NCBI RefSeq assembly: GCF_004210375.1
Contig: NC_134828.1
Location: 20,824,400 to 20,888,399, forward strand
Source: Tachypleus tridentatus
Lineage: Eukaryota; Arthropoda; Merostomata; Xiphosura; Limulidae
Length of the DNA: 64,000 nt
Direction of reading: 5' to 3'
The translations under genes and the position numbers were made by a program. Shown here piece after piece: positions 5,586-39,694 of the stretch. How positions within the stretch are numbered: the stretch's first letter is position 1; every line of letters begins with the position of its first letter. The notes below the pieces were generated by a model. The model was not told the DNA's origin. It searched no databases and saw only the letters and a program-made list of their open reading frames with translations.

Positions 5586-5629
5586 ATCCCTAAACCAGAT
5601 CTGACTCACCTCCCATCGTGAAATATTAT

Positions 5630-6180
5630 GTATAATTCTATCTATTTCTCAGTATCAAATATGGATCAGTTGCATGTGTCGCCACCTAGTAACGGTAATA
5701 GTACTCAAACAAAGTATATTACTCGTCTACCGAGATTTATCAACCTTGAAGGTTCGTAGGAAGTGATATGGATCGAACTGCAATACCCTAAGTTGTCATA
5801 ACGTGCCTGATCTTACACGATGAATATTACACTTTCCCGGCTTTCACTTTGATACCATAATACATTATATTAGACCATGTCGTTACAGAGAACCTGAAGT
5901 TTTAATTAGAACCTTAAACTAATTAGAAGACACATTTCTTAACCCTGACAACGAACTGATATTTACTTGTGATTCGTTTACACCAAAAGTAAGCATGATT
6001 GTAAATGATGGATCTTCTATAACATGCAATCCTGTACTACCAGTTATACTTGGATGTAATAATAATCGCATGATGACAGAATGTACCACAGCTATACATA
6101 CTGTTAATGGACAGGACGTACCACAGCTCCACATACTGTTAATATGCATGGTAGATTTTTTTTTTTTTTTGTATTTACTC
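5630..6180 (+). pseudogene. Polinton penton/minor-capsid-like relic
   Basis: Broken frames encode a fragment resembling the minor capsid (penton-like) protein of Polintons: 'YITRLPRFINLEGS' near 5718, then 'NDGSSITCNPVLPVILG' near 6005-6055. Several stops and frame changes occur, and the end runs into a T-rich stretch. It lies in the expected integrase-to-capsid neighbourhood. The identification is moderate and the relic is non-functional. Confidence 0.6.
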
Positions 6181-6590
6181 GGATACTGTGGAAGACAATC
6201 GTATCCTCGTCTAAAGGCAAAGATTGGCAGGCCTGATGGAACTGACATAAAGGATGAAGGTACCTCTGCACGTATCAACTTCTCACTTCATTTTCTGTTT
6301 TCTCAAGTTGTTGTATACCTGAATGATAAATTAATTTCTTCGTCTCACAACCTTTATGTATATAAGGCCTACGCAGAAACTTTAGTGCATTATGATGGAG
6401 AAGCTAAGAGAAGTCATTTGACATGTGAATAAAAGACACAGCTGGTAATTTGGGCAGTCTAGATTTTAACAATGCTGAAAACTATGGAATCGAAGACCAA
6501 CAGATAGATACACGTGGTAGTCAAATAGTTGGACTGATCGATCGTCTATATTCGGATATCTTTTTTACAGGACAAGTTCTTGCCTAATGG
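6181..6590 (+). pseudogene. Polinton major-capsid-like relic (N-terminal part)
   Basis: The frame encodes 'SYPRLKAKIGRPDGTD' and 'KLISSSHNLYVYKAYAETL', which resemble the capsid protein family represented by C. elegans F54H12.2 (recalled, not searched). A TAA near 6430 and a frame change interrupt it; similarity resumes to about 6575. A 5'-truncated SINE follows, so the rest of the capsid gene is absent. Confidence 0.65.
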
Positions 6591-6610
6591 AGTAAGCTTA
6601 ACACGATTTA

Positions 6611-6831
6611 GTCGAATCCCCATTATACCAAACATGCTCTTCCTTTCAGCCGTGGGGGGCGTTACAATGTGACAGTCAATCCCACTACTCGCTAGTAAAA
6701 GAGTAGTCCAAGAGTTGGCGGTGGGTGGTGATGACTAGCCTCCTTCTCTCTAGTCTTATACTGTTAAACTAGGAACGGCTAGCGCAGATAGCCCCCGTAT
6801 AGCTTTGCGCGAAATTCAGAAAACAAACAAA
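6611..6831 (+). mobile_element. tRNA-derived SINE, family 1, 5' truncated
   Basis: Begins within the tRNA-like head at 'tcgaatccc' and continues through the core to 'gcgcgaaattcag'. It abuts the end of the Polinton relic. Confidence 0.85.
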
Positions 6832-6888
6832 TCTGTCTTTATTGCTTAACACACATATGCTTCAGTCCTTTAGTTTAAGCCTTAGCTT

Positions 6889-7015
6889 CCAGGTAGCCCC
6901 CCGCTAGTACACCGGTAAGTCTACGGCCTTACAACGCTAAAAGCAGGGATTCGATTCCCTTCGGTGGGCTCAGCAGGTAGCCCGATGTGGCTTTGCTATA
7001 AGATAATACACACAC
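6889..7015 (+). mobile_element. tRNA-derived SINE, family 3
   Basis: The head has box-B-like 'ggattcgattccc', then 'gtagcccgatgtggctttgc' and a CA-rich tail. The same family occurs at 8685 and 9560. It is short and lacks the family 1 core. Confidence 0.8.
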
Positions 7016-7613
7016 ATAACTTCCAGGTAACAGTTTAAATAAACCATGTAATCATTTTTGTTGGTTCCTCAATCGAAATGATACTTCTTGGTAATGTTCT
7101 CATTTATAACTTAACAAGATATATTAAAAAACATATTTTGTGCAATATAGACCTGTTCAAATAACAATTTAAAATAAAATATTTTTTCTGCCGTATTTTC
7201 ATAAAGTGTTAATTATCCCTCCATGTATTTCCTTTTAAACGTTGAAATTGTACTTAATCTCGATATGTGTATACGTATACACAAAATTCATTTCAGTTGT
7301 TTTTATACATAATACTACAGAATGGACAATTTTCGCACTGACCACCTCGGATTTTGAACCCTGAATTTCGGCGTTAAAAGTCCTCAAGCTTACTGCTGAG
7401 CCAATAAAGAGCGTGACAAACTGTTTTCTTTTATTCTAGTAAACAATAAATAACCAAAAATGTTATCTCATGGGTGTGCACAAACTGATTGAGAAGATGA
7501 TTTGTGTTATTAATTGTATTAATACAAGCTGGTTGAAGCATTTAAAAAGAATAAACTATAATTTTAAAAAACTTAACGACAGGTGGCGTAAAAAGTCTAC
7601 ATTTTGTAGTTGT

Positions 7614-7877
7614 ATTTGAAATTCGCGCAAAGCTACACGAAGGTTATCTGCGCTAGCCATCCCTAATTTAGCTGCGTAAGAGTAAAGGGAAAACAGCTCG
7701 TCATCACTACCCACCGCCAACTCTTGGGCCACTCTTTTACTAATGAATAGTGGGATTGACCGTCACTATATAACGTTCCCACGGTTAAGAGGGCGAGCAT
7801 GTTTGGTGTGACTCAGATTCGAATCCGCGACCCTTACGTTACAAGTCGAGCTCCTTAACCACCTGGCCATGCCGGGC
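7614..7877 (-). mobile_element. tRNA-derived SINE, family 1
   Basis: Full-length but diverged copy, ending at the '...ccatgccgggc' head on the + strand display. Confidence 0.88.
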
Positions 7878-8205
7878 TCAGGATTTCATATAAAACAAAT
7901 CGAATATTTTTCGGCACTAAAAATAGGAATATTTAGATTATGTTTGATATGTTTCTATAACAGCAAACGCCAGTGCTTTGTAATGTTATTGATTTGTTCC
8001 CTACGCATTTAAAGCTTTCTTTTTTTTATCTTCTACAGCTACTTGCAAAAAAAAAAGTTACTGAATACATAACAACCAACAAACAAATTTTACACTTTAT
8101 TGTTATTGTTTTTAGTTTGTAAAGTATACTGAAGGAATTTAGACGTTTTTACAACAAAGTTAAAACTACCTTAACCTTCCACATAACAATAAAAGAAAAT
8201 TTATA

Positions 8206-8245
8206 TTTCAGCCAACGTTTTGCTGTTGCAATTTCATCAGGGATA
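8206..8245 (-). other. Decayed hammerhead-like motif (Penelope-like 3' end)
   Basis: Read on the - strand there is CTGATGA, a TTGC/GCAA stem and AAAACG. This is the order of hammerhead ribozyme core elements, but the G of GAAA is lost. It is followed by 'gttggctgaaatataaa', a tail I associate with Penelope-like elements. Probably inactive. Confidence 0.45.
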
Positions 8246-8684
8246 ACAAGAACTGTTCTCAATCCTGATGTTGTCACAATGACGAAATATCGTATGAAAT
8301 ATTGTTTTCCATTATTATCTAGAAACAAAATGTGTTCTTTTTTTCTAAACAACTATGTTTTCAGAGTTTCACACTTACAAATATAGAATAGTTATTAATT
8401 TCCCCAAAAGGGGGCCGAATTTCGCCTGGAGGGTTCACCTGTTTTAACCATTCGCACTCCTACATACTGTCAGGAAGTCAGTAGACACTAAAATAATGCC
8501 ATATAAGGAATGCTAACGTTGCATTTTGTATTATTAGTAAAAGGTGAACATGCCAAGAAACACGAAAAGAATTATGCCCTCTATAGGGTAAAACAGAGCA
8601 TGACATATGAACTTCAAAAGCAAGAAATAAAAATATTTGTTTCTCTTAATTGTGGTTGTATTTACTCTTGAAATAAAATAATTT

Positions 8685-8822
8685 CGGAGACCATATGGAA
8701 GTACATCTAGTGACTAGAAAGTCATGTTTGTTTCACAGTAGACACCAGGTTTTCGATTCCCCTCGGTGGACTCAGGAGATAGCCCGATGTGGCTTTGCTA
8801 TGAGAAAACACACACACACAGA
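8685..8822 (+). mobile_element. tRNA-derived SINE, family 3
   Basis: Contains 'gattcccctcggtgg', 'gatagcccgatgtggc' and a (CA)n tail. The head is diverged. Confidence 0.7.
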
Positions 8823-9164
8823 ATAGAAACAACGCCCCCTACTGGATATGTATATAACCTACAACCATTAGAGGATCACAAACGAATGAGAGTCCCAAGA
8901 AATACAAACCTAGAACTTATTTTTGGTATAAAAATAAAAAAAAATATTTCAATTAAACCTTTATGAGAACTGAAAATGGTTAAATTATTATTACAACAGA
9001 TAAATAGATTTGTTATGTTTTATTTTAACGCAAAGCTTTGCACTAAGAAAACATGAAACTTCATGAAGATTCGAAATATTTTATATTAGTGAGAGAAACT
9101 TTAGCATTAGAATTAGAAAAAAAACCCCAACTAAAACCGATATTTATTGTGCACATAATAATAA

Positions 9165-9212
9165 TATTTTATTTCCGCCAACATTCAGCCGTTGCGGCTT
9201 CACCAGCGCTAG
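9165..9212 (-). other. Decayed hammerhead-like motif (Penelope-like 3' end)
   Basis: On the - strand: CTGGTGA, a perfect AGCCG-CAA-CGGCT hairpin, GAAT, then 'gttggcggaaataaa'. Hammerhead cores need CTGANGA and GAAA, so each block has one change. The stem is intact. It is a sister of the motif at 8206-8245. Confidence 0.5.
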
Positions 9213-9559
9213 TGGTACAAGAGGCAAATATGGGTGTCCACAGAAGGGTCAAGAGGGGTGTACTTGACCACTTTGAGAAATGAGAAACATAATTATTTAT
9301 TTATTCATTCTTCATATATACATAATTTTTAAAATTTAGTTCACGATCTCACACTTCCTTGCCCCTTGCGCCCCCCCCCCCTGAGTATTTTCTGCTGACG
9401 CTCATGGAACGAAAATGTTTAAATTCCACCAATGTGTAAAACAAATCCTCTACCACCACCAAAAAAAAAAAACAAGAACAAAACAACACAGAACAGCTTG
9501 AAGTGGGTCTCTGTGGTGGACAACACATGAAATAAAATGGATAAATTGCTGAAACATTC

Positions 9560-9660
9560 TTATATTACAACGCTAAAATCAGGGGTTCGATTCTTCTCGG
9601 TGGGCTGGGCAGATAGCCCGATGTGGCTTTGCTATAAGAAAACACACTCAAACACACATT
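9560..9660 (+). mobile_element. tRNA-derived SINE, family 3
   Basis: 'caggggttcgattcttc' plus 'gatagcccgatgtggcttt' and a CA-rich tail. The 5' end is indistinct. Confidence 0.75.
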
Positions 9661-10396
9661 CTTACAGGGCACTAAAATAACTATGTTTGTGTTCTTTAAT
9701 AATATCGATTACAGAAACTTATGAATATATGCGAAGAAACAGAAATTTCTCGGAGCAGCTTTCACAAAAATGCAAAGCAGGTGTTTATAAAAGTGACGTG
9801 CACAGGGGGAGTGGGGTTAAGTGGCTGTGTAATTTGAGCCCCTTTTTTCCTGATGTTTTGCCTAAAAAATGTCATTTTTTCTCCCTGTCATAAAAACTGT
9901 CAAGTTCAAAAAGTTACGTCTGCTTTCATACTCTGCTTGCTACGAGTTATTAGGCACGTAGAAAAGGTTATTAAACACGCCTTCTACACTACAAACAAGT
10001 AAAATAACATTCTAATAAATTACTTACTGAAATTCCTATTAATTTTTGTACTGAAATAAACGTTCTTATGTACTTAACAGGAGTCTAAAGGTCGTTCTTT
10101 AATAGGCTTATTATAAAAATAGAAAAAGGATTTCAGTTTTAAGATGAATGAAACACAGGTATTTTTAGCTTTTTACAATGCAAAAAAAATAATTATGATA
10201 CGCTATTAAGTGTTAACATGTAAATTTTAACTGTTCAGTTTTAGGTATTAAAAGTGTTTTGTAAGAGTAACTAAACAAGGAATAAAAAATGGCCTGTTTG
10301 CTTCTTATGGATTTTTACTCTGTGTTTACTGTAGTATCATAGTTACTATGACTACTACCGTTTTAAACTGACTGTGATTACTACTGTTTGTTATGT
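9661..10396. other. Spacer, nothing firm
   Basis: AT-rich. The last ~80 bases contain weak 'actactaccgttttaaa' units like the array at 13690-14465. Confidence 0.5.
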
Positions 10397-10493
10397 TTTT
10401 ATAGGGCCGGATTCTTCACACTAGATGTCTGTGATTTATTGGCGATAAATTTCAAAAACAAACGGACAGCACACAATCCACTTGTTTTGAAAT
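10397..10493 (-). repeat. Left arm of ~95 bp inverted repeat around a gypsy relic
   Basis: Its reverse complement matches 13583-13680 ('acaagtggatt', 'gaaatttatcgc', 'cacagaca'). LTRs would be direct repeats, so this pair is not an LTR pair. Confidence 0.7.
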
Positions 10494-10935
10494 GATATTT
10501 TTTAAAGAAGTCAAACATACATACCAAGCTTCGTTATACTGTTGGTTATCACAATTGTATCCAGAGCTATAAACAGTTGTCTCTTTTTCGTCAGAGTCTA
10601 CATAGGCGAGTTCAGTTACTTCAGAACACCCTGTAACAATACAAATTGTTCTCACCTACTCTGTTATTACAATTATAAGCTGTGGAACTCACTTTAGAAA
10701 TCACTACTATACGCTTTTTTATAGCTAAACGCACTGTCACGCAGTATGAATTCACTTGTTTTTTCCACTTTTACGTTCACACAATATAAACTAAATAATA
10801 CCCTCGTATTAAACTTAAAATGAACAGTTGTACAGATCTAACAATAAGCTCCTCTTCAAGAAAAATATTTACAATATTTTTTACACTATAAATAAAGACT
10901 GTTCTCAATTCATACTCAAAATCTACTCATATAGT
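10494..10935 (-). repeat. Probable 3' LTR remnant of gypsy relic
   Basis: Part of this ('aataagctcctcttcaag' and the following A/T-rich block) resembles the LTR at 43015-43450 ('aataagctcttcttcaaat'). It directly follows the RNase H relic on the - strand. The boundaries are uncertain. Confidence 0.5.
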
Positions 10936-10939
10936 CTGC

Positions 10940-11700
10940 ACCACTGTTTGCAGTCCCTTAATGGCTTCAATTTTCCTTGCACTGTTGGTTTTGTAATTTA
11001 AGATGTATGCAAGGGGCTGATGATCCATATGGATCATGAACTCCTATCCATTGAGGCAGTTCTATAAGGTCTGGAAGGCAAATAAGATGGCCAGACATAT
11101 TCGTTCAATCACAGAGTAGTTCTTTATCCTACTCAATAGATTTTTACTTATATACATTACTGGAAATAGTCCATCTTTATGTTTATTGTAGGAGTACTGC
11201 CCTAATTCCAATGTCTGAAGAATCGGCCTGAATGATGAACGGTTTGTTGAAGTCTGGCATTCCAAGGATTGGCAAACTTATTAACACGTTCTTTAACTTC
11301 TGGAAAGGTATTTGGTTTGGTTGTTCCCACTTGACCCTGTTAGTTTGACCTTTTTTGGTAGTACCATGACTTGTTTCTCGGTTGTTGGAACTGGTGCATC
11401 ATGAATGTGAACTAACTTTTTAATGTTGAATGTGGTTGAAGGTTGCTACAGAGCTGAGCAAATCAAATGGAATTCTCTTGAACTAGTGACACCCATCTGT
11501 ATTACAAATGCTATATTTTCTTTAGAAGCTGTCTCCATCGGAACCTACCAATAACCTTTTCCGAAATTGATCTTGAACAAAAACTTGGCTCCATCTAGTT
11601 TCATCATGATAACCCTTAGTTGTTCATAGGTTCGGAGTTGAATTTCGTCACGAGATTCAGCTTATGGAAGTCTATGCAGAAGTGGTTTCTCGGTAAGCAA
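10940..11700 (-). pseudogene. Gypsy reverse transcriptase and RNase H relic
   Basis: On the - strand, 'CIDFHKLNLVTKFNSEP' near 11690-11640 is the start of a Ty3/gypsy reverse transcriptase. It lacks most of the palm. RNase H-like sequence follows ('FPVMYISKNLLS', 'NYSVIERICLAILFA') near 11170-11080. There are several stops and frame changes. It abuts integrase sequence on its 5' side, which is not the usual gypsy order. Confidence 0.75.
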
Positions 11701-12171
11701 ATAATACTGCTTGCATGCATTTGTACCAGTCTCTCTTTGCACGTCTTTAACATGCTCTTTAAGACTCTATTGACATTTTCATGTCATCTAGGGTTATACA
11801 GATTGGTAAAAAGTTGCCTAGTGCTGATGAGTCTGCATACCTCTAGCATCAGTTCTGAAGTAAAATGGATCATTTTCTCACTCAGAAATTTTCAGAAAGC
11901 ATATCTCACTGAACAATTCCAGGATGGCTCCTGCTACTCTTTCCATCTGTATCTTCGTCAGTTCAATGTATTCTGAATAACGTGTGGAATAATCGACTAC
12001 TGCCAGTACATACCAGTTGCTCTTGTCAGATACAGGTGTTAATGGCCCCATCAAATTCACAGCTACTCTGCTGAATGGCTCTTCTGTGAGAGGCATCTTA
12101 TCCAGTGGCACATTGATTACCTTCCCTTTAGGTACTGTCCTTTGATGGATGTCACTACATAATCTAGTCAC
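11700..12171 (-). pseudogene. Gypsy integrase relic
   Basis: 'MPLTEEPFSRVAVNLMGPL' and 'YVLAVVDYSTRYSE' are the catalytic-core region of a Ty3/gypsy integrase; the first catalytic Asp position is replaced (VNLMG rather than the usual VDLxG). Downstream, an out-of-frame remnant of the region ending 'LFAYRE' runs straight into reverse transcriptase sequence. Dead copy. Confidence 0.8.
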
Positions 12172-13264
12172 ATCTCCAATCTCCCCTGACCAATGGAAGA
12201 GTTAACCTGTTTGGTATTTTCTTTGCTCCAAGGTGTCCTCTCACAATCGACTCATGAGCCATTTTCATCATTTGAGTCCACTAGTCTGTTGGTACTATGA
12301 ACTGTTTAACTTTCCCAGTATAAATGTTTTAGTAGAACTGGTGCAGCACTCTCTCACGGTCCTCTATTGTGTAAGTACCCTTCCCTCTGTCTTATGCTCG
12401 ACTTTCGACTAGGCACTTTCCTGAAGTTTCTGCATTGAAAGGTCTTTCTTCTGTGCTTCCTTCAGTTCCTGTATATTTACATTCAGAATCTCACCTTTCG
12501 AGGCTTACAGGGGCTTCATGTCTTGCTTGCTTTTCTTTTCATGTGCTCTAGTGGTGACTGCAGATGCTTCATCTTTTTGTTTGGTTTCTCCAGTCACCAA
12601 GTCATAAATGCATGCTTCATACACATTGACTCACTTCCTTCATGTGGTGAATCTAACGGGTTGTCTCTGTTTTGCTCCTTCTGGCAAGAGCATCTTTGGC
12701 AATAGTCACTCTTTTCTTGTTTCTCTCCAACATCATACATTTGTAGGTAATTTCAGCAGTTTTATGTTAAAATATTTTACTGTTACATGTTGGTGGCAGA
12801 CTTGCACCCATTCATAATGTGTCCCATTTTATAACAAGTGTAGCACCCCACTTCCTTCTTCTCTGTTAAGTTCTTATCACGTTTATTACTATCCTGGTTA
12901 TTCTTGGACTTGCCAGTTATACTCCCTCCAGGGACTTCCATCTACTGTTCTGCCAGCTGCATCATCTTATCCATCTATTTTGATGATCTCTACTTTAGAA
13001 ATAGACACATTGCAGTTGAGCACGTGATCAAAAAATTTTCACGTTTTGGAAGAATTGCCAGTCGTTCAAAACTATTTTGAAACCTTGCCATGTTTTTCAA
13101 CTTTGTGAGTATCGACGTAGACATGCCACTAACTGGAATACTGATTTTCCAATGCCAGGTTTAACATCTATAAATTTACGGAGATAAGTTTGTCACTTTT
13201 CAGCAACAGCATTTTCAACTTGTGATAGTTCATGTCATCTTTGACGTTATGCCGACATATACTT
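12172..13264 (-). pseudogene. Gypsy gag C-terminal part with zinc knuckle
   Basis: At 12846-12804 the - strand encodes 'CYTCYKMGHIMNGC', a good CX2CX4HX4C zinc knuckle typical of gag nucleocapsid. Flanking sequence resembles the internal region of the second gypsy relic (43450-45760). Frames are broken. Protease could not be placed. Confidence 0.65.
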
Positions 13265-13504
13265 CTAGGCCTTTTTCTCTGAGAAGAGGGCTGGAACACA
13301 ATGCCCAGTTACCTTTGTCCCAAATCTGACTTTGAGTGAAATTTTATACATCTCCAAGTAAATATCTATGTCGTCCTTCTGTTCATTAAACATAAATAGT
13401 TTGGGTATATTGAACCTCACCCAACTGTCATTCTCAGATCCTTCACTTTTCTGTTGGGTGAGCTTAAAAATTTCAGATTGTGCTATTATTCTCTCTATTT
13501 CCAT
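13265..13504 (-). pseudogene. Gypsy gag N-terminal fragment
   Basis: A 79-residue open fragment with 'NIPKLFMFNEQKDDIDIYL', which resembles chelicerate gypsy gag ('...FDEKKDDIDSYL...'). A related block lies at 45600-45760 in the other relic. No 5' LTR is seen upstream. Confidence 0.6.
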
Positions 13505-13582
13505 TCTTTCACCTCTCTCCTTTTCATCGTTCTAATTTTCTGCTCTTGTTCGCTCTTCCTTTAGATTGACTTGTTCTGAATA

Positions 13583-13680
13583 CATTATTTTAAACAAGTG
13601 GATTCTGAGCTATCTGTTTATTGTTGAAATTTATCGCTAGCAAGTCACAGACACCTACTGTAAAAACCTGGCCATATAAA
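13583..13680 (+). repeat. Right arm of ~95 bp inverted repeat around a gypsy relic
   Basis: Inverted partner of 10397-10493, lying between the gag relic and a minisatellite. Confidence 0.7.
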
Positions 13681-13689
13681 AAGCTGACA

Positions 13690-14465
13690 CCTAGTTAAAG
13701 TGACTTATGTATATTAGTGTTTTAAAATCATTCTGACTACTACCATTTTAAAATCATCATGATTAACGTTTAAAAATGACTATAACCACTGCAGTTTTAA
13801 AGTAACTACAACTTCTACAATTTTAAAGTAACTACACTACAATTGTTCTAAAATGACTATGACTACTACAGTTTTAAAGTAACTACAACTACAACCGTTT
13901 TAAAATGACTATGACTACTACAGTTTTAAAATCACTACGACTACTGCAGTTTTAAAGTAACTATAACTACAACCGTTTTAAAATGACTACGACTACTGCA
14001 GTTTGAAAGTAATTATAACTACAACCGTTTTAAAATGACTATTACTACTGCAGTTTTAAAGTAACTATAACTGCAACCGTTTTAAAATGACTATAACTAC
14101 TACAGTTTTAAAGTAACTATAACTACAACCGTTTTAAAATGACTATAATTACTTCAGTTTTAAAGTAACTATAACTACTACAATTTTAAAGTGAGTATAA
14201 ATACTACTGTTTTAAAATCATTATAACTACTACAATTTTAAAGTAACTATCACTACAACTGTTTTAAATTGACTATAACTACTACAGTTTTAAAGTAACT
14301 ATCACTACAACTGTTTTAAAATGACTATAACTACTACAGTTTTAAAGTAACTATAACTACAATCGTTTTAAATTGACTATAACTACTACAGTTTGAAAGT
14401 AACTTTAACTACAACCGATTTATAATGACTATAACTACTACAGTTTCAAAGTAACTGTAGCTGCT
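13690..14465. repeat. Minisatellite, ~26 bp unit with 52-bp dimer
   Basis: Alternating half-units 'tgactataactactacag' and 'taactataactacaaccg', each followed by TTTTAAA. About 15 dimers, diverged at the edges. Confidence 0.9.
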
Positions 14466-15300
14466 ATCAACTTATAGTCACTATGGCTACTGTTTCTGAG
14501 CTTCACTCTCTACCGTGAGGTGACATCTCTCTCAGACCGCAGCATGTTCCAGTAAAAATGTCACAGAAACAAACGGTAAAATGAAAATGTTCGGTCAGGA
14601 AATTCATTAATTAATGTTTAGTTTTTATATGAAGCTCTAAATGAAGTAGCAACATGTATGAAAGTCTACAAAGAGTTTGTGAAATTATCTGAACATTATT
14701 TTGTCCTTGTAAAAATGTTTAGTCTTAAATAATTTATGAAGCCTCGAGAAATAACCGATAAGTAAATCAACTAACCCTTGATGTAAAACATCTTTAGAAA
14801 TGACCATCGCCATTCAACAATACTGAAATCCATATACCTCATATCTACCTACAATAATCAGATTTCAAAATTTTTTAGAATATTTCGATAATGTTTTCGA
14901 TGTTTGGAGAAATATCAAAAATCAATGAGATTCTGCACGTGGAGATCAGCTTATTTTTGTGTTTCCTTCATCCATGGGGTTCCAATCCTACAGCAGCACC
15001 ATAGTGGTTTTCATTCATACCTTTTTGAGTTATATGCTCTGTAATTATTCTAAATTTAAACATACATAATTAGGCACGTTTTGAATCGTACAAATACAGT
15101 CCAGTAGGTGGGCCAAGAGTTAAAGATGGAACAAGGAGGTTTGAAACGGCTTCAGTTATGAAACTTCTGCTGAGAGATGGGTTGGACAATGCGGTACAAA
15201 TGAGCTCACTCGTACGATATCTTGTACATCTAACCACTTTTGTCCCTTTTATTTCCAAAAGAACCACAATTTTCTCAGCGTGGTGTACATCGTCACCTTT
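14466..15300. other. Upstream region of ITP gene A
   Basis: No repeat family recognised. Short open frames at 15070-15415 overlap the promoter and first exon on both strands and show no family similarity. Confidence 0.5.
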
Positions 15301-15301
15301 C

Positions 15302-15333
15302 CACGTGGATGGTGGAAAGAGAGAGTATTTAAA
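15302..15333 (+). promoter_or_regulatory. Candidate promoter of ITP gene A (E-box and TATA)
   Basis: TATTTAAA at 15326-15333 lies about 90 bases before a strong splice donor. A palindromic CACGTG E-box is at 15302-15307. Transcription would start near 15357 if the usual ~30 base spacing holds (inference). Confidence 0.55.
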
Positions 15334-15356
15334 CCAGAAGATCTCTAGGAAACTAG

Positions 15357-15424
15357 ACCTTGGAAACAACCTTTCTTCCTGTCTTCACAAAGTCTTGGTT
15401 TGCTTTCCAGCTTAACTCTTCAAG
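15357..15424 (+). other. Candidate 5' UTR exon 1 of ITP gene A
   Basis: Ends with CTTCAAG|GTAAGG, a near-ideal donor. The next acceptor on this strand with a strong polypyrimidine tract is the one just before the gene A start codon at 17101. The start position is only estimated from the TATA box. Confidence 0.55.
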
Positions 15425-15548
15425 GTAAGGTTTCAACTTTCTTATACTGTAAAGTGTTTCACTAAAAGTCTTACAAGAATAAATGGCTAAATGAAAATGT
15501 TTCGCCTCGAAATTGTTTTCAAATCATGCTTGTCTTAAATATGGGTTA

Positions 15549-15606
15549 TATACTATACTATACTATACTACACTATACTATACTATACTATACTATATTA
15601 TACTAT
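15549..15606. repeat. TATAC pentanucleotide microsatellite
   Basis: About eleven tandem units with one TACAC variant, in the presumed first intron of gene A. Confidence 0.95.
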
Positions 15607-15689
15607 AACCTTTTAGTTCTAACAGAAAAGTAAGGTGAAATCACAAGATCTGTTTTACAACAACAGTTATTAGATACGATATATTTAAA

Positions 15690-16045
15690 AACAAAGCTAT
15701 TTACAAAAGATACATTTAACAACGAAGTTGTTTAGAGAACATCTGTTTAAAAACAAGTTATTGAGGTAAGACCTGCTTAACAATAAAGTTGTTTATGTAA
15801 TATCTGTTTAATAACAAAGTTGTTTAAATAATATGTGTTTAATAACAATGGTTATTTAGCTAAGACCTGTTTAACAATAAAGTTGTTTATGTAATATCTG
15901 TTTAATAACAATATTGTTTAAATAATATGTGTTTAACAACAATGGTTATTTAGGTAAAACCTGTTTAACAATAAAGTTGTTTAAATAATATGTGTTTAAC
16001 AACAATGGTTATTTAGGTAAGACCTGTTTAACAATATAGCTGTTT
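15690..16045. repeat. Imperfect tandem repeat, ~30 bp subunits
   Basis: Repeats of 'acctgtttaacaataaagtt' and 'gtgtttaacaacaatggtta' types, forming a higher-order unit of about 90 bases. Confidence 0.8.
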
Positions 16046-16340
16046 AGAAACTTATCTAAATCTTGAAAACAAGTTGTATCTTTTCAATTCAAAAGACATG
16101 GAATATATGGTAAACAGGAGAGCTAATGGTAATTCATTCATCAGCAGCCGTTAAACATCTGTTTTTATAACTTAACCATTTATATGTTTTGCAAATAATG
16201 TTTGTTTATATCTCACCCTAAATTTACGATATATTAAATACTTTATAAAACAGAACTTATGTGTTTTTTTAATGTGGCGGATAATTTTAACTCACCACGA
16301 TGGAAAGAAGTAATGAGGTGAAGCAAACTGTACAGAAAAC

Positions 16341-16790
16341 ACACCGTATTTACTTTAACGTCACCAGTATTGTAGTAAATTTATCAATTGTTTCACTTAA
16401 CGTTACCAGTATTGTAGTAAATTTATCAATTGTTTCACTTAACGTTACCAGTATTGTAGTAAATTTATCAATTGTTTCACTTAACGTTACCGGTATTGTA
16501 GTAAATTTATCAATTGTTTCACTTAACGTTACCGGTATTGTAGTAAATTTATCAATTGTTTCACTTAACGTTACCGGTATTGTAAATTTATCAATTTTTT
16601 TACTTAACGTCAGCGGTATTGTAAATATATCAATTGTTTTACTTAACGTTACCGGTACTGTAGTCAAGTTAACAATCTTTTATTTAACGTCGCCGGTATT
16701 GTAGTCAAGTTAACAATCTTTTATTTAACGTCACCGGTAGTGCAGTAAATTTAACAATATTTTACTTAACGTCACAATATTGTGATACAT
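16341..16790. repeat. Minisatellite, 42-bp unit
   Basis: Core 'aacgttaccagtattgtag' then 'taaatttatcaattgtttc'. The unit length is a multiple of three, so frames stay open on both strands (16300-16704 + and 16350-16667 -). Those frames are not genes. Confidence 0.95.
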
Positions 16791-17100: not shown

Positions 17101-20100
17101 ATGATTCACGGATGGAACAGCGTGTTTGCTCTGGTCGTTGTCACGCTACTAGCAATTTTCGCTTCTGGGATGGCTCAAACGAGGTCCATCCAATTGAAAC
17201 CTTTCCGGGACATTGGCTGTAAAGGAGAATACAACAAGTCTAAATTTGCTCGTCTGAACAGAGTCTGTGAAGAATGCTACAACCTGTATGTAGCACCGGA
17301 AGTCGTACTTAAGTGTCGGTGAGGACTAAGTCTTGTTCATAAGAGATATTTACAGTTACACCTCTACAGATGTTACAACGTTTTCCCCCAGTGGCACAGC
17401 GGCATGTTCGCGGACTCACAACGCTAGAAATCGGGTTTCGATACCCGTGGTAGGCAGAGAACAGATAGCCCATTCTATAGCTTTGTGCTTAATTCCAAAC
17501 AAATTGTTACTACGAACAAAAACAATTTATTGGATACGTAACAAACACACACAAAAATTTCATTCTTTTAAAGTTTCATAGAAGATTCCAACAGAAGGGT
17601 CCGGCATGGCCAGGTGATTAAGGCACTCGACTTGTAATCTGAGAGTAGCGAGTTCGTATCCCCGTCATACCAAACATGCTCGCCCTTTCAGCCGTGGGGG
17701 CGTTATAACGTCACGGTCAATCCCACTATTCGTTGGTAAAAGAGTAGCCCAAGAGTTGGCGGTGGGTAGTGATGACTAGCTGATTTTCCTCTAGTATTAC
17801 ACTACTAAATTAGGGACGATTAGCGCAGATAGTTTTCGTGTAGCTTTGCGCGAAATTCAAAACAAGCCAAACCCAACAAAAGAACAGATTATTACAAAAA
17901 TATGCAAGCAGGTTGTTTTACTTAAACTGCGAAATCAGTGCATTTACAGTTGTTTCTGTTACAATGGGTTAAACAGACGGACAAACAAATAGATACGTAG
18001 ATCAAATAACAGTAAACTAACAAAAAAGCAAAACCATAATTACTTGTAAAAGTATTAATTAATAGTTTTGATTAATATTTATCTCATGAACATTAGTAGC
18101 GGACTTCTCCGCTAGGTGTACAAAGTTTACTTCTTGGATGTTCGTAATGAGCTCAATTGGCGTTATTTGTTTGTTTACTTTTAACCAGAACAACAGCTGA
18201 GCTATTTTGATGAAGGAAGCGACAAAGTGAACCAGTTGGTTATGATAAAGTTATCTTTCGTACTGGGTTTTAACCGAATTTTCTATGTTGATAACTGAAA
18301 TAGATAGTTACAAAGGAAGAAACTGTTCGTGTCAAAATCCTGATTTTGTACCGGAATTTTTGCCGAATTTTCTATGTTGATAATTAAAATAGATAATTAC
18401 TGGAGGAGCAACTGTTTATATCAGTATAATAAGTTGTGTTGGGTTCCTTTGTGTTAACACTTGGCACATAAAAAATATTTTACAATATGGCCGTTAAACG
18501 TAAAAGTGACTTTCTGTAATACATGATCGAGGTTGGCTTACGATCTGTTGTCAGGACAGTATATCTAACTTAGATTGTCCCAAAGATCTAGCTATTATTG
18601 TGAGAACGCGTTTTTTCTTTGTTAGACTGTCTCCAAGATCTAGCTGTTGTTGTGAGAACGCGTTTTTTCTTTGTTACACTGTCTCCAAGATCTAGCTGTT
18701 GTTGTGAGAACGCGTTTTGTCTTTGTTACACTGTCTCCAAGATCTAGCTATTGTTGTGATAACGCGTTTTTTCTTTGTTAGACTGTCTCCAAGATCTAGC
18801 TATTGTTATAAGAACGCGTTTTCTCATTGTTACACTGTCTCCAAGATCTAGCTATTGTTGTGAGAACGCGTTTTTTCTTTGTTACACTGTCTCCAAGATC
18901 TAGCTATTGTTGTGAGAACGCATTTTTTCTTTGTTACACTGTCTCCAAGATCTAGCTATTGTTGTGAGAACGCGTTTTTTCTTTGTTACACTGTCTCCAA
19001 GATCTAGCTATTGTTGTGAGAACGCGTTTTTTCTTTGTTACACTGTCTCCAAGATCTAGCTATTGTTGTGAGAACGCATTTTTTCTTTGTTACACTGTCT
19101 CCAAGATCTAGCTATTGTTGTGAGAACGCGTTTTTTCTTTGTTGCACTGTCTCCAAGATCTAGCTGTTGTTGTGAGAACGCGTTTTTTCTTTGTTACACT
19201 GTCTCCAAGATCTAGCTATTGTTGTGAGAACGCGTTTTTTCTTTGTTACACTGTCTCCAAGATCTAGCTATTGTTGTGAGAACGCGTTTTTTCTTTGTTA
19301 CACTGTCTCCAAGATCTAGCTGTTGTTGTGAGAACGCGTTTTTTCTTTGTTACACTGTCTCCAAGATCTAGCTATTGTTGTGAAAACGCGTTTTTTCTTT
19401 GTTACACTGTCTCCAAGATCTAGCTGTTGTTGTGAGAACGCGTTTTTTCTTTCTTACACTGTCTCCAAGATCTAGCTATTGTTGTGAGAACGCGTTTTTT
19501 CTTTGTTACACTGTCTCCAAGATCTAGCTATCGTTGTGAGAACGCGTTTTTTCTTTCTTACACTGTCTCCAAGATCTAGCTGTTGTTGTGAGAACGCGTT
19601 TTTTCTTTGTTACACTGTCTCCAAGATCTAGCTATTGTTGTGAAAACGCGTTTTTTCTTTGTTACACTGTCTCCAAGATCTAGCTGTTGTTGTGAGAACG
19701 CGTTTTTCTTTGTTAGACTGTCTCCAAGATCTAGCTGTTGTTGTGAGAACGCGTTTTTTCTTTGTTACACTGTCTCCAAGATCTAGCTATTGTTGTGAGA
19801 ACGCGTTTTTTCTTTCTTACACTGTCTCCAAGATCTAGCTGTTGTTGTGAGAACGCGTTTTTTCTTTGTTAGACTGTCTCCAAGATCTAGCTGTTGTTGT
19901 GAGAACGCGTTTTTTCTTTGTTAGACTGTCTCCAAGATCTAGCTATTGTTGTGAGAACGCGTTTTTTCTTTGTTACACTGTCTCCAAGATCTAGTTATTT
20001 TTGTGAGAACATGTTTTCTTTGTTAGATTGTCTCCAAAATCATTGTTTTTCTTTGTTTTTTACTGTCTCCAAGATATGGCTATCCACGACGCCTACTGGT

Positions 20101-21123
20101 GTGAACACGATTCTTTGTCACAGAAAACAGTTTTCAACATTATTGAAATACATAAGACTTTTAACGATTTCTTACCAACAAAAGACGGCGCTACAAGCTC
20201 ACATCTCTTTAATCTTTCATTTCTTACTTTCAATTGAGCTACAAAACTTGCTCACCCTTAAAGTTCTTATTGATAGTCTTATATAGTTCGTTGTTGCTTA
20301 TAAATTTTCAATGTCACCTACTCAAGTAACATTATTCACTGTCCTTTATTTCCCATGAACTATTATTACGCTACAATTATCAGTTTCTTCTAATTAAACT
20401 AAAAAAAGTGAGATTTTTACTTGTGTGTATGTATGGTGGGGGCACAATAACTTGAGAGTTAAATCCACTATTTGGTTATTTTAAGAGTAGCTGAACGAAC
20501 CACTTGACACATGTGTCGCATAAAGTGTAGTTCATGTTGAAAATTACAACGTATAAAATATTATTCATATTACACTACATTTTTTTACAGACTTGGCCCG
20601 GCACGGTAAGGTGGTTAAGGCGCTCGACTCGTAATCTGAGAGTCGAGGGTTCTAATTCCAGTCACATCAAACATGCTCGCCCTTTCAGTCGTGTGGGCGT
20701 CATAATGTGACGATCAATCCTACTATTCGTTGTTTAAAAAGTAGTCCAAGAGTTGACGGTGGGTGGTGATGACTAGCTGCCTTCCCTCTAATCTTACACT
20801 GCTAAATTAGGGACGGCTAGTGCAGGTAGCCCTCGTGTAGCTTTGCACAAAATTCAAACCAATTTACAGGCTATTTGCAAATTTATATATTTCTAATTTT
20901 TACATCATTTTTTAAATTAATTATCTTACCACATTTCACGAAACATATTTTACTTTTTTTTTTATCAAATTAATATACTGCTAAATGTTCATATTATTAT
21001 AGGGCCAACTGTTTCAAGAACGACATGTTTACCGCCTGTGTTGACGTTCTGTTGCTTGAAAAGGAAAAGTCAAAGTTTGAAAGCTTTGTTAACATCTTAA
21101 TGGGAGACAGTGAAAGACCGTGA
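17101..21123 (+). CDS. ITP/CHH-family neuropeptide precursor, paralogue A
   Basis: Two coding exons, 17101-17318 and 21003-21123, join in phase 2 inside the Arg codon after the fourth cysteine, the usual intron site of this family. The 112-residue product has a hydrophobic signal peptide (about 1-25) and cysteines at 40, 56, 59, 72, 76 and 85. Those spacings (16, 3, 13, 4, 9) fit the ITP/CHH three-disulphide fold. Such hormones are secreted and act on ion transport, glucose or moulting. The ATG follows the acceptor (T-rich tract, CAG) directly. Unlike gene B there is no KR before the mature part. The C-terminus keeps the Gly that normally donates the amide (ILM-G) but follows it with DSERP-stop, not basic residues. 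A poly(A) signal lies at 21411. ITP-like is the safest name. Confidence 0.93.
17385..17505 (+). mobile_element. tRNA-derived SINE, family 2
   Basis: 'cccccagtggcacagcgg' head, 'ggtttcgatacccgtgg', then 'agatagcccattctatagc' and 'ctttgtgcttaattccaaac'. It sits in the gene A intron. Confidence 0.9.
17598..17880 (+). mobile_element. tRNA-derived SINE, family 1
   Basis: Full-length copy in the gene A intron, sense to the gene. It starts 'ggtccggcatggccaggtg' and ends with an A/C-rich tail. Confidence 0.92.
18240..18416. repeat. Diverged ~85 bp tandem duplication
   Basis: 'ccgaattttctatgttgat' occurs near 18274 and 18363 with similar flanks. The rest of 17881-18540 shows nothing recognisable. 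Confidence 0.65.
18555..20030. repeat. Minisatellite, 52-bp unit, about 28 copies
   Basis: Unit blocks 'agctattgttgtgagaacgc', 'gttttttctttgttacactg' and 'tctccaagatct'. Units are highly alike, and each normally holds AGATCT and ACGCGT. It fills about 40% of the gene A intron. Confidence 0.98.
20595..20860 (+). mobile_element. tRNA-derived SINE, family 1
   Basis: Full-length copy in the gene A intron, about 140 bases before the second coding exon. The 'tttttttacag' before it is acceptor-like but leads only to a short frame. Confidence 0.92.
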
Positions 21124-29640: not shown

Positions 29641-29810
29641 TATCATTCAAAACACCTGAAGATTTCTAATAATTTTCAATTTTTTTGATTTCTAACAGTA
29701 TATTAACGCTCAAGAGAAATTATTCAGAATTTAAATATAAGAATGCGAAATTACAGTTTCTTGTTCGTCAATAATTCTTTGAATTATTCCGTATGTTCAA
29801 TGTAGAATCA

Positions 29811-30143
29811 AACCTATATCCCCACTGTAAACTTGTAGTATCGTACATATTCTACCAACACAAGAACCTATTTTTAGCCCTATATCCCCACTGTAAACCT
29901 ATAGTATCGTACATATTCTACCAACACAATAACCTATTTTTAGCCCTATATCCCCACTGTAAACTTGTAGTATCGTACATATTCTACCAACACAAGAACC
30001 TATTTTTAGCCCTATATCCCCACTGTAAACCTATAGTATCGTATCTATTCTACCAACACAAGAACCTATTTTTAGCCCTATATCCCCACTGTAAACCTAT
30101 AGTATCGTATCTATTCTACCAATACAAAAAAACTATTTTTAGA
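29811..30143. repeat. Tandem repeat, 66-bp unit, five copies
   Basis: Unit includes 'cctatatccccactgtaaac' and 'ttctaccaacacaagaacc'. The length is a multiple of three, so the frame at 29793-30176 is an artefact of the repeat. Confidence 0.95.
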
Positions 30144-30707
30144 AAACTTAGTTTCGCACTATTATTTTATCATTAGGAAAACAACCAGAATTGATCTCTC
30201 TATCTTTTTCACTCTGTGAATGAAAAAATACGAAGTTGACGACAGGTGGCTTTCATTTCCACAGTGAAAATCTGAACATTTCGTGAATACACTAACTTTA
30301 AACGCAGTAAATTAATTATAGCCTGATAAAGTGTTTTGGGTACAGCTGTATTTATCATTGTTATTTTCCTATCTACTGTACATATCATCAGAATCCACAA
30401 AGGTCAGACATAAGAGTGATATCACTGGATTGATCTTCCGACATGTGGGACTGAGGTGTTGGATCGTGTTTTTTAAGACGACCACTTTGGGTTAAAATAG
30501 AGTATTAATACTTAAGCCTGAACTAAAATTCAGACGTTTTTCCTTGAGTTCTTTCTGGGTTTGTTTAGTAAATATTTGAAACTATAAATCTGACTAAAGT
30601 AATTGATTTTAGTTTTTTCATCTCTCCTTAAACCAAAGTCCAAGATAATGAAATAGAAAGTCCACTTTTTCTGTGAAAGCAAAAAAGTTATCCGTTTCTT
30701 ACTACTT
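30144..30707. other. Spacer, nothing recognised
   Basis: No gene or repeat family identified. Confidence 0.5.
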
Positions 30708-35584: not shown

Positions 35585-38500
35585 ATGGCAGCAAAGTATT
35601 TCCGTTTCGTCCTGATGATACTGTTGCTTTCCACAACGGTGGCCAAGAAGAAGATTTTACAGAAGCGAAGTTTTTCTGTATTGGGTTGTATGGGAACTTA
35701 TGACAAGGCCAAGTTTGCTCGACTGAATCGAGTATGTGAAGAATGTTACAACCTATACAGAATTCCAAGTGTGCAGGAAGATTGCAGGTATGCTAGACTC
35801 CCGAATTTTTGGATTTAGGCCTAATTTTCAGTATTCAAAGAAAATTAAATACAGGTTTTACACCAGTAATGTAAGATACCACTATCTGTTGCTTCTTTTA
35901 CACCGAAAACCACACCACACAGGTAGTAAAAAATCCCACCATCGATTACTTCTTATTTTTACGCTGAAAAATTTCATATAAGGTTTATTACATTTACATT
36001 AGGTATCTAAACAAGTAATACAAAATTACTAGTCTCAAAGACTAGTGTAATCTGATGGTTACCGTGCCAGACTGTCAATATTGAAGACTCGTGATTCGAA
36101 TATCTTTGCCGTACCTTAGGAGCTTGGTCGTGTTATGAGAGCGACAGTAAAATCTTAATATTCGATTTGAGTAGTCTAAGACTTGGCGATGGTTGCTGTT
36201 GACTAGCTGCCTTCCCATTGGTCTTTCCCAACGTTAAGGGTTTGTGTTCAACTAGACATGGTATACATATCAGATAACAGCATATGATACACAGATAGAT
36301 TTAGCGTCCACTAGGCCAACGTTCAGGTCTAATAGTCATGGTATTATATATAATGCATAGACCAATCTAATGATTATTAACCATGACGAATTTGAAAACG
36401 GTGTAATAATTCAAATTATTTTGGATAATAAAAGTTTATTAATTCTCAGTGAAACCTGTTCTTACATTATGATAAATCTATAGGTATGTAATTATTTTAT
36501 TTTTTTTCTATTCCAGCAGAATGTCTCATCTTGTTGAAGGATGTTTTATGTTCTCTTCAAATCACATATATTAGTTAAAATATTAAAAAATTTGGCTTTT
36601 TTTTCAATTAATAAAAAAAGAGTAATATAAGTTATCATACTGTGTGGGCTAACTGTAAACTTAGAATTATCAAACTGATCGGAAATGAATAACCTTATTT
36701 TTAATTTATTAAGTTAATTTAAAACTAATAATATTGGTTTTGATACATTAAATTAACTTAAGATAGTAATACTGGGTTTGAATTATGAATTGATTTAAGA
36801 ACAATAGTATGGGTTTTGGTTTTGTTGTAAGCTGTAAAACTTCACGCTGAGCCACCATGGAGCCCCAATGAGTTGGCAGTAAATTTACTGGCTTCCAACA
36901 CTACATTCTGTGGTTGATTCCTCGCAGTGGATAAAGCTCACTTAGCCAATTGTGTGGCTTTCACTTGAAAACTTTTTTTTTTCACAAACAAACATAAAGC
37001 TTTCAGTAATAGAGGTTTAAGTGGCAACTCTTTCAATAGGCTGCTGACAGTACTAGACGTTAAACTTGTGTAGCAGCCACAATTTAGTGAAGCAACAGAG
37101 ATTTGTTTATTGTGTCCAAGATGGGGTAGTTTCCTAAAATCTTCTAAATAAACACTTTCTGAGATTTTCCTAATATATCAGGACACAGCTTATAGGAAGC
37201 AAGGAAAAATGTAACCGTGTTGTTGTTGTTTTTTTTCATCATGAACCATATCATAGGTTTATAATATGGATCACAATAAACTACACAAAACCTTAACATT
37301 ACGTTTGGGCGAAACTCATCTCAAACAGTAAAGATTTGGTTCAACAACGATTTAAAACCTTTAATACTGTCTGCTGGACACACGTATAAAAATGCACAAA
37401 TGTTATACTTACAAAGAACAGAAAATCCGTTCAAAATGTCCTGTTTGTAATTTTTCTCATAATTAATATTTATCAGCTAACAACAAAAACAGATCGATAA
37501 ACCTTTTGTAGAATACTAAATAAGGTACTACGAAGGTCGTAGGGGTATTAAAAATTCGATTTGTTTCTTTCATATTTTATATAAACTACAAACATCATAA
37601 TGCCAATGTAAACGGTGTTATCATTATCCCTTGAAGTTAGCTTTCTTACAAGTGTTCTTAAAGAAAGCTGAGTGGCGTGTGAATTGAGGAATAACAGCTA
37701 ATAATAGACGAACATTAGTTGACTGTAACATGTAGATACTCAATGCTTTGTACACTATAAAATCGGTGTCTTCAAGAAGCGACCTCTATATTACGTACGA
37801 AATAAAGGAGTAAAAACGTCAGTTTACATAATATTAAATTTTACTACACATATTGATAGAATAATTACTTGAAAAAGAAACGAATTTTTAGTAAAAAGAG
37901 ATGTTTGTTTTAGAATTAAGCACAAAGCTACACAATGGGCTATCTGTGTTCCGCTCACCACAGGTATCGAAACTCGATTTTAACGATGCGAGTCCGCAAA
38001 CATACCTTTGTGCCACTAGGGGGCGAAAAGAGATGTTTTAGACGTATATGCTTTACTTGGAAACGCTGCTTTTCTATACAGGTAAAATTTTATACGTGAT
38101 TAGTGGTGGTTATGACTTTAGCCTAAAGACGTATTTGCCCAATGCTATGCAATATACGAGGTCTGTTAAAAAAATACGCGGACTGTTTGAATTGCGCGGC
38201 TCCAGTTGGTTCCAGGGGAATCCGCTTGGTGTCGCTAGGTTCGCACAGATAAGCTGATTACGACGCCATTTCCCGATTGCAGATATCTTTATTTGTGTAT
38301 TAGCTACGCGGTTTTAAGTGAAGTGCGATTTTTTCGTTTGGCGGATTTCAGAATGAATGACCTGAAGAAGCAACGACTTGCTGTGAAATTTTGTGTTAAA
38401 CTTGGAAAATCTGCGACTGAAACTTTTGCTATGCTTAACACGGCTTACGGTGATGTTGCTATGAAGCGTACGGCATGTTTCAAGTGGCATGAACGTTTTA

Positions 38501-39694
38501 AGGATGGTCGACAGTCCATTGAAGATGATGAGCGTCCTGGACGTCCTTCCACGTCAACTGACGACCCACACGTCGACAAAATCAACACCCTGGTGCGGGC
38601 AAATCGACGTCTGACTGTCAGGGAGTTTGCTGAAGAGTGTGGGATATCAGTTGGATCTTGTTACGAGATTTTGACCGAAAAATTGAAGATGCACCGCGTT
38701 GCTGCGAAATTTGTGCCTCAGAACTCGTGAGTTTTTTGGCCAAACACTCGATCACTGTTCTCCCCCCCCCCTACTCACCTGAAGCTTGCTCCTTGCGATT
38801 TTTTTCTTGTTCCCCAAACTCAAAAGACCCTTAAAAGGAAGAAGATTTGAGACGATTCCCGAGATTAAGGCAAATGCGACGAAGGAGCTGGAGGACATTA
38901 CAAAAGAAGCGTACCAGGACTGTTTCAACAAGTGGAAACACCGTTGGGATAAGTGTGTGCGTTGGGGAGGAGAGTACTTTGAAGGGGTCCCAGACCTGTA
39001 ACTTCTAAATAAAGTACATTTTGTTTTATGACGTCAGTCCGCGTATTTTTTGAACAGCCCTCGTATGTACATTTATAGAATTTAATTACACAGAAACCAT
39101 AAAACAAATCTTCAGCAACGGCTTAAAGTTTTGCATCTTGAAATAATGCGATCAAATAGTCAATAGCTACAGTGAATCATCATGAACTGTATCAACTAGC
39201 AAGCATGTTCGTTATCATTACAATATATAAAATTAGCTACCATATCAAGTAAAAATAGGGATCCTAAAAAAAGTTAGGAAACAAGGTTAGAGATTCTGTA
39301 AACATTATTGAACCAAACGACAAACCCATATTTCGATCTCACCAAAAGTAGTTCTAGGTAGCAACATGGGGCCAAAATAGGGGGTTTGTAATTTGAGTAA
39401 ATAACGTCAAAATTATCCCCAGCTTTGTTTTCTTACTTCATTTACAATCTCTATTTGCAGATTTTTTAACTATTAACCTTGTGCCATTATATTTAGATTA
39501 GGCTATCCCGTTAAAATGTTCTACAAAGAGAAATTCATACAGGTTAATACAAATAATTCTGTTGTTACTGTTTTTTTAGGTTCAACTGCTTTAATAACGA
39601 CATGTTTCCAGATTGTGTCTCTGCCTTGTTGCTGGATCCTGAACAGCAAAAGCTCGACTCTTTTGTAGATTACTTGTATGGAAAGAAGAAATAA
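35585..39694 (+). CDS. ITP/CHH-family neuropeptide precursor, paralogue B (canonical)
   Basis: Coding exons 35585-35787 and 39580-39694 join in phase 2 in the Arg codon after the fourth cysteine. The 105-residue product has a signal peptide (about 1-20), a short KKKILQKR spacer ending in a dibasic site, and a mature part at 29-101. Mature cysteines fall at 7, 23, 26, 39, 43 and 52, exactly the ITP/CHH positions. The end DYLY-GKKK-stop is a textbook amidation site, giving a 73-residue amidated hormone. The ATG follows the acceptor TTTAG directly, as in gene A. Residues 'KFARLNRVCEECYNLY' are identical to A. The intron holds SINE parts and a mariner. A poly(A) signal is at 40055. By family knowledge it is secreted from neurosecretory cells and acts through a receptor; the exact role is unknown. 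Confidence 0.96.
36040..36245 (+). mobile_element. Decayed SINE with another head and part of the family 1 core
   Basis: tRNA-like 'gatggttaccgtgccagac' and 'cgtgattcgaata' head. Then 'gtagtctaagacttggcgat' and 'gactagctgccttcc', as in family 1. It lies in the gene B intron. Confidence 0.6.
36867..36980 (+). mobile_element. Decayed tRNA-derived SINE (family 2/3-like)
   Basis: 'ccccaatgagttggcagtaa', 'ggttgattcctcgcagtgg' and 'agccaattgtgtggctttc' follow the order of family 2 but are diverged. Confidence 0.55.
37040..37893. other. Gene B intron, nothing recognised
   Basis: AT-rich intron sequence. Confidence 0.5.
37907..38025 (-). mobile_element. tRNA-derived SINE, family 2, with TSD
   Basis: Complete from tail to 'gtgccactaggggg' head. 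A perfect 13-bp duplication AAAAGAGATGTTT flanks it (37894-37906 and 38026-38038). Confidence 0.95.
38353..38730 (+). pseudogene. Mariner transposase, N-terminal DNA-binding part
   Basis: Starts ATGAATGACC and encodes 125 residues of the paired helix-turn-helix region ('LNTAYGDVAMKRTACFKWHE', 'RPGRPSTSTDD', 'MHRVAAKFVP'). It ends at a stop just after the second helix-turn-helix because the catalytic centre is deleted. Confidence 0.9.
38731..39001 (+). pseudogene. Mariner transposase, C-terminal remnant
   Basis: Encodes the end of the catalytic domain, through a one-base frame change around 38780, to 'KWKHRWDKCVRWGGEYFEG'. The first two catalytic Asp regions are missing between this and the N-terminal part, so no active enzyme can come from this copy. 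Confidence 0.88.
39067..39570. other. Gene B intron, nothing recognised
   Basis: AT-rich intron sequence before the second coding exon. Confidence 0.5.

Follow-up and report, generated by a model that had tools for sequence, protein, structure and literature searches.

A CHH/ITP-family gene without prohormone maturation signals in the horseshoe crab Tachypleus tridentatus

Organization of the Locus and Domain Architecture of A

We analyzed a 64,000-nucleotide stretch of the genome of the horseshoe crab Tachypleus tridentatus (NC_134828.1, positions 20,824,400 to 20,888,399, forward strand; hereafter the window), which contains two genes of the CHH/ITP superfamily, here termed A and B (Table 1). 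Gene A, the main subject of this report, encodes a protein of 112 residues (MIHGWNSVFALVVVTLLAIFASGMAQTRSIQLKPFRDIGCKGEYNKSKFARLNRVCEECYNLYVAPEVVLKCR^ANCFKNDMFTACVDVLLLEKEKSKFESFVNILMGDSERP) that matches the Pfam profile PF01147 over positions 1-66 of 67 with an E-value of 1.8e-25 and a score of 89 bits, against a curated cut-off of 25. A preliminary description of this DNA, made from its letters alone, had stated that A keeps all six cysteines. This is the case: they are located at positions 14, 30, 33, 46, 50, and 59 of the mature protein (counted from 0), and the gaps between them (15, 2, 12, 3, and 8 residues) are canonical. The same gaps are found in the scaffold printed for the ITP/CHH member xibalbin 6 (PMC5577568; here and below, published statements are given as they stand in excerpts of the cited papers). 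Among PDB sequences, A matches CHH-L (5xs1, E=2.5e-13), and the sequence alignment with MIH (1j0t) spans residues 35-106 of A, including the C-terminal helix region.

The first exon of A is bounded by TTTCACAG/ATG and TGTCG/GTGAGG (donor CG/GTGAGG, phase 2), and the second by TTATTATAG/GGCC and the TGA stop codon, with the intron junction TGT CG/gtgagg ... ag/G in phase 2 after the fourth cysteine. A phase-2 intron was present in every CHH-family gene then known, save a few nematode genes, and was inferred to be ancestral (PMC2841656); the house-spider members of the family also carry it (PMC5314461). Thus, A is a member of the CHH/ITP superfamily with canonical cysteine spacing and the ancestral phase-2 intron. 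Its ATG directly abuts a splice acceptor, a layout (AG/ATG) common to most intact models of the family that makes an additional, untranslated 5' exon probable. Signal cleavage is predicted by the (-3,-1) rule at GMA/QTR, with ASG/MAQ as an alternative. The 87 residues that follow the predicted signal peptide have a calculated isoelectric point (pI) of 8.6, and the domain has a pI of 8.4.

Table 1. Features of genes A and B in the window (positions counted from its first nucleotide).
Feature	Position	Strand	Description
Gene A, exon 1	17101..17318	+	Signal peptide, N-terminal extension, CHH domain through fourth Cys
Predicted signal peptide of A	17101..17175	+	Residues 1-25, by hydropathy and the (-3,-1) rule
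QTRSIQLK stretch of A	17176..17199	+	Aligns with B spacer KKKILQKR; L32-K33 at the KR place, then Pro34
Intron of A	17319..21002	+	Phase 2, in the codon following the fourth Cys
Minisatellite in A intron	18576..20041		52-bp unit, 28 copies
Gene A, exon 2	21003..21123	+	Cys5-Cys6, C-terminal helix region, Gly107, tail DSERP, stop TGA at 21121-21123
GDSERP tail of A	21103..21120	+	Gly retained, then no basic residue directly; B has GKKK
AATAAA	21411..21416	+	Possible polyadenylation signal, 288 bases past the A stop codon
Gene B, exon 1	35585..35787	+	Signal peptide, KKKILQKR spacer, CHH domain through fourth Cys
Gene B, exon 2	39580..39694	+	Terminates in GKKK-stop

Absence of Maturation Signals in A Compared to the Horseshoe-Crab CHH Family

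Gene B encodes a conventional set of maturation signals, reading ...ILQKR/SFSVLGC...YLYGKKK-stop. At the place of KR-SF in B, A has LK-PF, and at the place of the GKKK-stop it has GDSERP-stop, so that the exon translations agree with the preliminary description, in which A was said to carry LK and G-DSERP where B has KR and G-KKK. The proline after LK would likewise hinder cleavage by a proprotein convertase.

The 2.17-Gb assembly contains coagulogen, a horseshoe-crab protein; one coagulogen exon matches the PDB chain 1aoc, the coagulogen of Tachypleus tridentatus, in full except for the first few residues. The assembly was searched with the PF01147 profile, and 150 of the 318 candidates were scored, so that the resulting counts are lower bounds; at least 147 exon matches were found. 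Gene models were sought at 76 places, namely A, B, 60 places in an array on contig C1, and 14 loci off this contig. A model was called intact if it had an ATG, an open frame, an AG acceptor, at least 100 residues, and at least six cysteines. Models were obtained at 68 places and not at the remaining eight; 45 of the 68, encoding 38 distinct proteins, were intact, with assembled duplicates of A and B excluded from this number. The other 23 models fall short of one or more criteria, and in at least one case (L030) the reason is that the model was clipped at the extraction boundary.

The site aligned with KR of B is KR in 44 of the 45 intact models and LK in A only. The tail begins with Gly followed by Lys or Arg in 41 of the 44 models other than A. 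No pair of basic residues ([KR][KR]) is present anywhere in A, and every other intact model (n=44) has at least one. Both signals are therefore lacking in A only, and the absence of both processing sites, as claimed in the preliminary description, goes beyond a pairwise difference between A and B. The 44 other models share 23 invariant alignment columns, of which A keeps 20, the changes being K32L, R33K, and M41K. KR was also found in exon 1 of three out of three further loci, one of which has in-frame stops and another Ile in place of Met after the first cysteine. The amidation Gly is missing (FRK...) from three models (L027, L029, and L070) that retain KR, which indicates that the two maturation signals are separable in the horseshoe-crab CHH family.

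The survey also revealed a large CHH/ITP array on the chromosome-size contig C1 (12.83-15.11 Mb; L029-L048 and L050-L089), with at least 78 exon-1 matches in approximately 2.3 Mb. Gene models were sought at 60 of the 78 matches; 36 of the 60 examined genes are intact and mutually very similar. KR is present in every one of these 36, and the tail is GKRK in 33 of them. Some of these copies may be assembly duplicates. By comparison, up to nine chh genes are described in decapods and a single itp gene in insects (PMC7560641), and the array is more striking than the loss of sites in A. Among the matches listed in a search of the open-access literature, neither an ITP gene without KR nor a large CHH array was reported for a horseshoe crab.

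Alternative Exons and Assembled Copies of A

The missing signals could be an artefact of the gene model if a 5' or 3' exon that restores the convertase and amidation sites had been missed, which we regard as very improbable. The probable upstream 5' untranslated exon is the one feature in keeping with this explanation. In the whole window, however, exon-2 and exon-1 profiles detected the exons of A and B only, with the next matches at E-values of 0.7 and 0.37, respectively, and the start codon abuts its acceptor as in most family models. A scan of splice acceptors in the A intron and 2.9 kb downstream yielded no alternative exon 2 that restores the sites; besides the known exon 2, it returned minisatellite reads and short stubs. 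We therefore rejected an alternative 3' exon for A. A published survey assigns four-exon genes with an alternative exon to the pancrustaceans and describes only one peptide from the tick gene (PMC2841656), which also argues against a missed exon. Alternative exons restoring a dibasic and an amidation site in A were one of the findings that the preliminary description had named as contrary to its proposal; they were looked for in the A intron and 2.9 kb downstream and not found.

Three places in the assembly match A (150 of 241 candidates scored): the window itself, an inverted arm to its left, and a copy at C4:26.14 Mb. All other scored matches reach no more than 55% identity to exon 1 and 61% to exon 2. 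The window contains a gap of 500 Ns at 266-765, on the left of which lies a head-to-head near-copy (C4:20783000-20824399). This left arm is 98.2-99.2% identical to positions 16355-40767 of the window in three blocks, and 94.0 and 95.9% identical to positions 2392-16775, nearer to the gap, in two blocks. The three places probably represent two haplotypes, joined in inverted orientation at the gap, plus a redundant contig, and on this reading of the near-identical arms we rejected multiple biological copies of A; alternatively, the left arm may be a true inverted duplication. The window and the intact C4:26.14 Mb copy agree fully in the coding sequence of A, and in the left arm this sequence is frame-broken by a one-base length difference in exon 1. 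Compared over 9 kb, the C4:26.14 Mb copy and the left arm differ by five mismatches and by 44 gap openings, an excess of gaps that points to indel errors in the frameshifted assembled copy. The alleles of A show no coding differences, and since the divergence of the intron is merely about 0.2%, this comparison is powerless as a test of selection.

Several repeats were noted in the same region. The intron of A is 478 bp shorter in the C4:26.14 Mb copy, making its minisatellite a candidate length-variable marker. Long frames made of tandem repeat units at 47156-47671 (minus strand; VRTQNSPCISLS) and 29775-30176 (plus strand; ALYPHCKLVVSYIFYQHKNLFL) are probably minisatellites rather than genes. 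A reading frame with the helix-turn-helix domain of a Mos1-type transposase (HTH_48, E=8.5e-10) occupies positions 38239-38730 inside the intron of B, and a Tc1-like transposase frame (HTH_Tnp_Tc3_2, E=8e-24) occupies positions 56876-57655.

Relationship of A to B and Other Family Members

In the preliminary description, A was treated as a paralogue of B. Over 74 alignment columns, the identity of A is 60.8% with B and 62.2% with another family gene (the C2 gene), whereas B and the C2 gene share 81.1%; A is thus about equally near to both. In the unrooted tree A falls on the B/C2 side (94/89). When the tree is rooted with three partial crustacean sequences, A is placed outside all other genes, weakly (53/79) and with a long-branch warning, and the test of topologies does not reject a clade uniting A with B and the C2 gene (p-AU 0.389). 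The identities and trees do not support A as a recent copy of B, and suggest that A may instead be an old lineage. The core motif ARLNRVCEECYNLY is identical in A and B. At the position where all 44 other intact models have Met, A has Lys (CKG), as in crab CHH-L (5xs1); the other two outgroup sequences have CTG and CRG.

The dibasic sites have been inferred to have arisen in the arthropod ancestor (PMC2841656). Together with the presence of KR in all 44 other intact models, this makes a loss of KR in A the simpler reading, and ancestral absence in the lineage of A may be considered as the alternative.

Selection on A and Its Proposed Function

Selection on the A branch relative to the background was assessed by a codon model on 74 codons in six analyses. 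The ratio of nonsynonymous to synonymous substitution rates (dN/dS, omega) was 0.24 for the A branch compared to 0.11 for the background. Neutrality (omega=1) was rejected with ten genes (P=0.03), with three genes (P=0.017), and with A and B set as sisters (P=0.001), on a tree whose fit is poorer by 5.4 log units. The A branch was indistinguishable from the background in the analysis of ten genes (P=0.26), and none of the codon analyses gave a sign of positive selection on A. We conclude that A is probably under purifying selection; constraint is favored by these results, not proven.

Based on these data, we propose that A is a functional secreted, non-amidated ITP/CHH-like hormone or local signal with a Type IV-like architecture, to which we assign a probability of roughly 0.53. 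Signal peptidase would leave a basic peptide of approximately 87 residues, and three disulphides, expected from the six canonical cysteines, would give it the fold of the CHH helix bundle. Since it lacks the sequences required by proprotein convertases and by the amidating enzyme, it would be a substrate of neither. The peptide would then act outside the cell, as do crustacean Type II and Type IV members, and its N-terminal extension and free tail may alter its receptor preference or stability. The preference for a secreted, non-amidated signalling peptide, ahead of a non-hormonal protein and then of a relaxed gene, comes from the Type II, Type IV, and tick precedents described below and from the unshortened domain. 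Also in its favor are the PF01147 and PDB sequence matches, the cysteine spacing and phase-2 intron, the 20 retained family-invariant columns, the low omega of the A branch, the splice sites and AATAAA, and the unchanged coding sequence in the second intact copy.

Several observations weigh against this proposal. Neutrality was not rejected with four genes (P=0.16), with the Cys1-Cys6 region alone (P=0.16), and with the C-terminal part alone (P=0.21). The end branch of A is the longest in the family (0.53 compared to a median of 0.094), and its domain carries a charge of +1.9 compared to -4.6 in B, with two of 17 other rows slightly positive; branch length and charge are as compatible with a new role as with a conserved one.

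The three analyses that did not reject neutrality would fit the possibility that A is relaxed or dying, its sites having been lost after duplication and the gene being now little used or untranscribed. The loss of both sites and the long branch would agree with such a fate, as would the existence of broken members in the family (the 23 failing models) and the frameshift in one of the three assembled copies of A. On the other hand, the open frame, splice sites, six cysteines, and 20 of the 23 family-invariant columns are retained, omega is below one in all six analyses and significantly so in three, and the frameshift is of the kind attributed above to assembly indels. We therefore rate decay of A as improbable.

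Somewhat less improbable is that A left hormone signalling and became a non-hormonal secreted ITP-fold protein of the haemolymph, a gland, or defense. The preliminary description had argued in this direction. Its view of A as an unprocessed, secreted, non-amidated ITP-fold protein holds at the level of sequence; the step from there to a non-hormonal role does not follow, given the Type II hormones, Type IV peptides, CHH-L/ITP-L forms, and tick ITP-like peptides described below. Horseshoe crabs are not known to have a venom gland, and an omega of 0.24 gives no indication of positive selection. The solitary loss of both maturation signals, the positive charge, and the longest branch would nevertheless suit a non-hormonal protein, and recruitment of family members to venoms has occurred repeatedly (PMC7560641). 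The preliminary description had also drawn a parallel to latrodectins. In the house spider, the CHH domains of venom members have 51-61 residues and those of hormone-type members 69-74 (PMC5314461), whereas the domain of A is full (66 of 67 profile positions), which speaks against the parallel. Long-domain venom members do exist, in a velvet-spider transcript (PMC5314461) and in remipede xibalbin 6 (PMC5577568), so that truncation is not obligatory. The house-spider venom clade also has a pI below 6 (PMC5314461), far from the values for A; this contrast is uninformative in the horseshoe-crab family, because 15 of the 17 other rows bearing hormone-type sites themselves fall below 6, and it is thus little evidence against a non-hormonal A.

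It is also conceivable, but rather remote, that A serves as a decoy or modulator: as an ITP-like ligand without an amide, it would occupy a receptor or partner of B-type peptides short of full agonism. The shared core motif and the reported higher potency of amidated over non-amidated CHH/ITP peptides (PMC7560641) would be consistent with such a role, whereas the charge of A, strongly unlike that of B, would not. Finally, and more speculatively, A might be the one copy left of an ancient ITP lineage of chelicerates, still bearing the CKG of crab CHH-L, that was freed from convertase and amidation and became a Type IV counterpart by descent or convergence. Independence from this machinery would allow its production in non-neuroendocrine cells, for instance in haemocytes or the digestive gland.

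Within the chelicerates, the horseshoe crabs branch off deeply. If the proposed function is correct, secretion without convertase and amidase, the route of Types II and IV, would have arisen outside the crustaceans as well, or would be older than thought. With the same hormone family copied dozens of times in this genome, the question of which neurohormone constraints are dispensable becomes directly addressable.

Comparison with Known CHH/ITP Systems

B and the 43 other intact models share with A the gene layout, cysteine pattern, and core motif, and differ from it in having KR (44 of 44) and Gly-Lys/Arg (41 of 44). In terms of the described types, A lacks the precursor-related peptide and dibasic site of Types I and III (CHH and ITP), with LK-P instead of KR-S, and it lacks their amidation signal of Gly plus basic residues, ending in GDSERP-stop.

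The latrodectins and HAND toxins of spiders and centipedes belong to the same superfamily as A, and the latrodectin genes share the phase-2 intron and arose as tandem duplicates. Their domain is shortened by loss of the terminal helix, whereas A retains a full-length domain with the C-terminal helix region. We therefore rejected membership of A in the latrodectin/HAND group, on the basis of the profile coverage and the alignment with MIH up to A106.

The tick ITP-like peptides of Ixodes and Dermacentor are, like A, chelicerate and non-amidated; they are shorter, with 74-75 residues, in a comparison of mature peptides, and the Ixodes gene gives a single mature peptide (PMC2841656). The long splice forms CHH-L and ITP-L are likewise described as never amidated, and few Type II hormones carry an amide (PMC7560641). 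A crab CHH-MIH-like neuropeptide with a 26-residue signal peptide and a 102-residue mature part with six cysteines is transcribed in the central nervous system (PMC6158917).

Type II hormones (MIH/GIH/VIH) are defined by the absence of the precursor-related peptide, which implies absence of the dibasic site (PMC7560641). A resembles them in this respect, with only an eight-residue extension, and differs at the Type II Gly in position 5 after the first cysteine, where the 1j0t alignment gives Asn without an inserted residue. The Type IV ITP-like peptides of crustaceans are described as having six cysteines and a length above 80 residues, and as lacking a precursor-related peptide, a dibasic site, and the Gly of MIH type (PMC7560641). 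A agrees with all points of this description, a likeness of architecture that may or may not reflect common ancestry; A differs from Type IV in being chelicerate and in keeping an eight-residue stretch in the place of the spacer.

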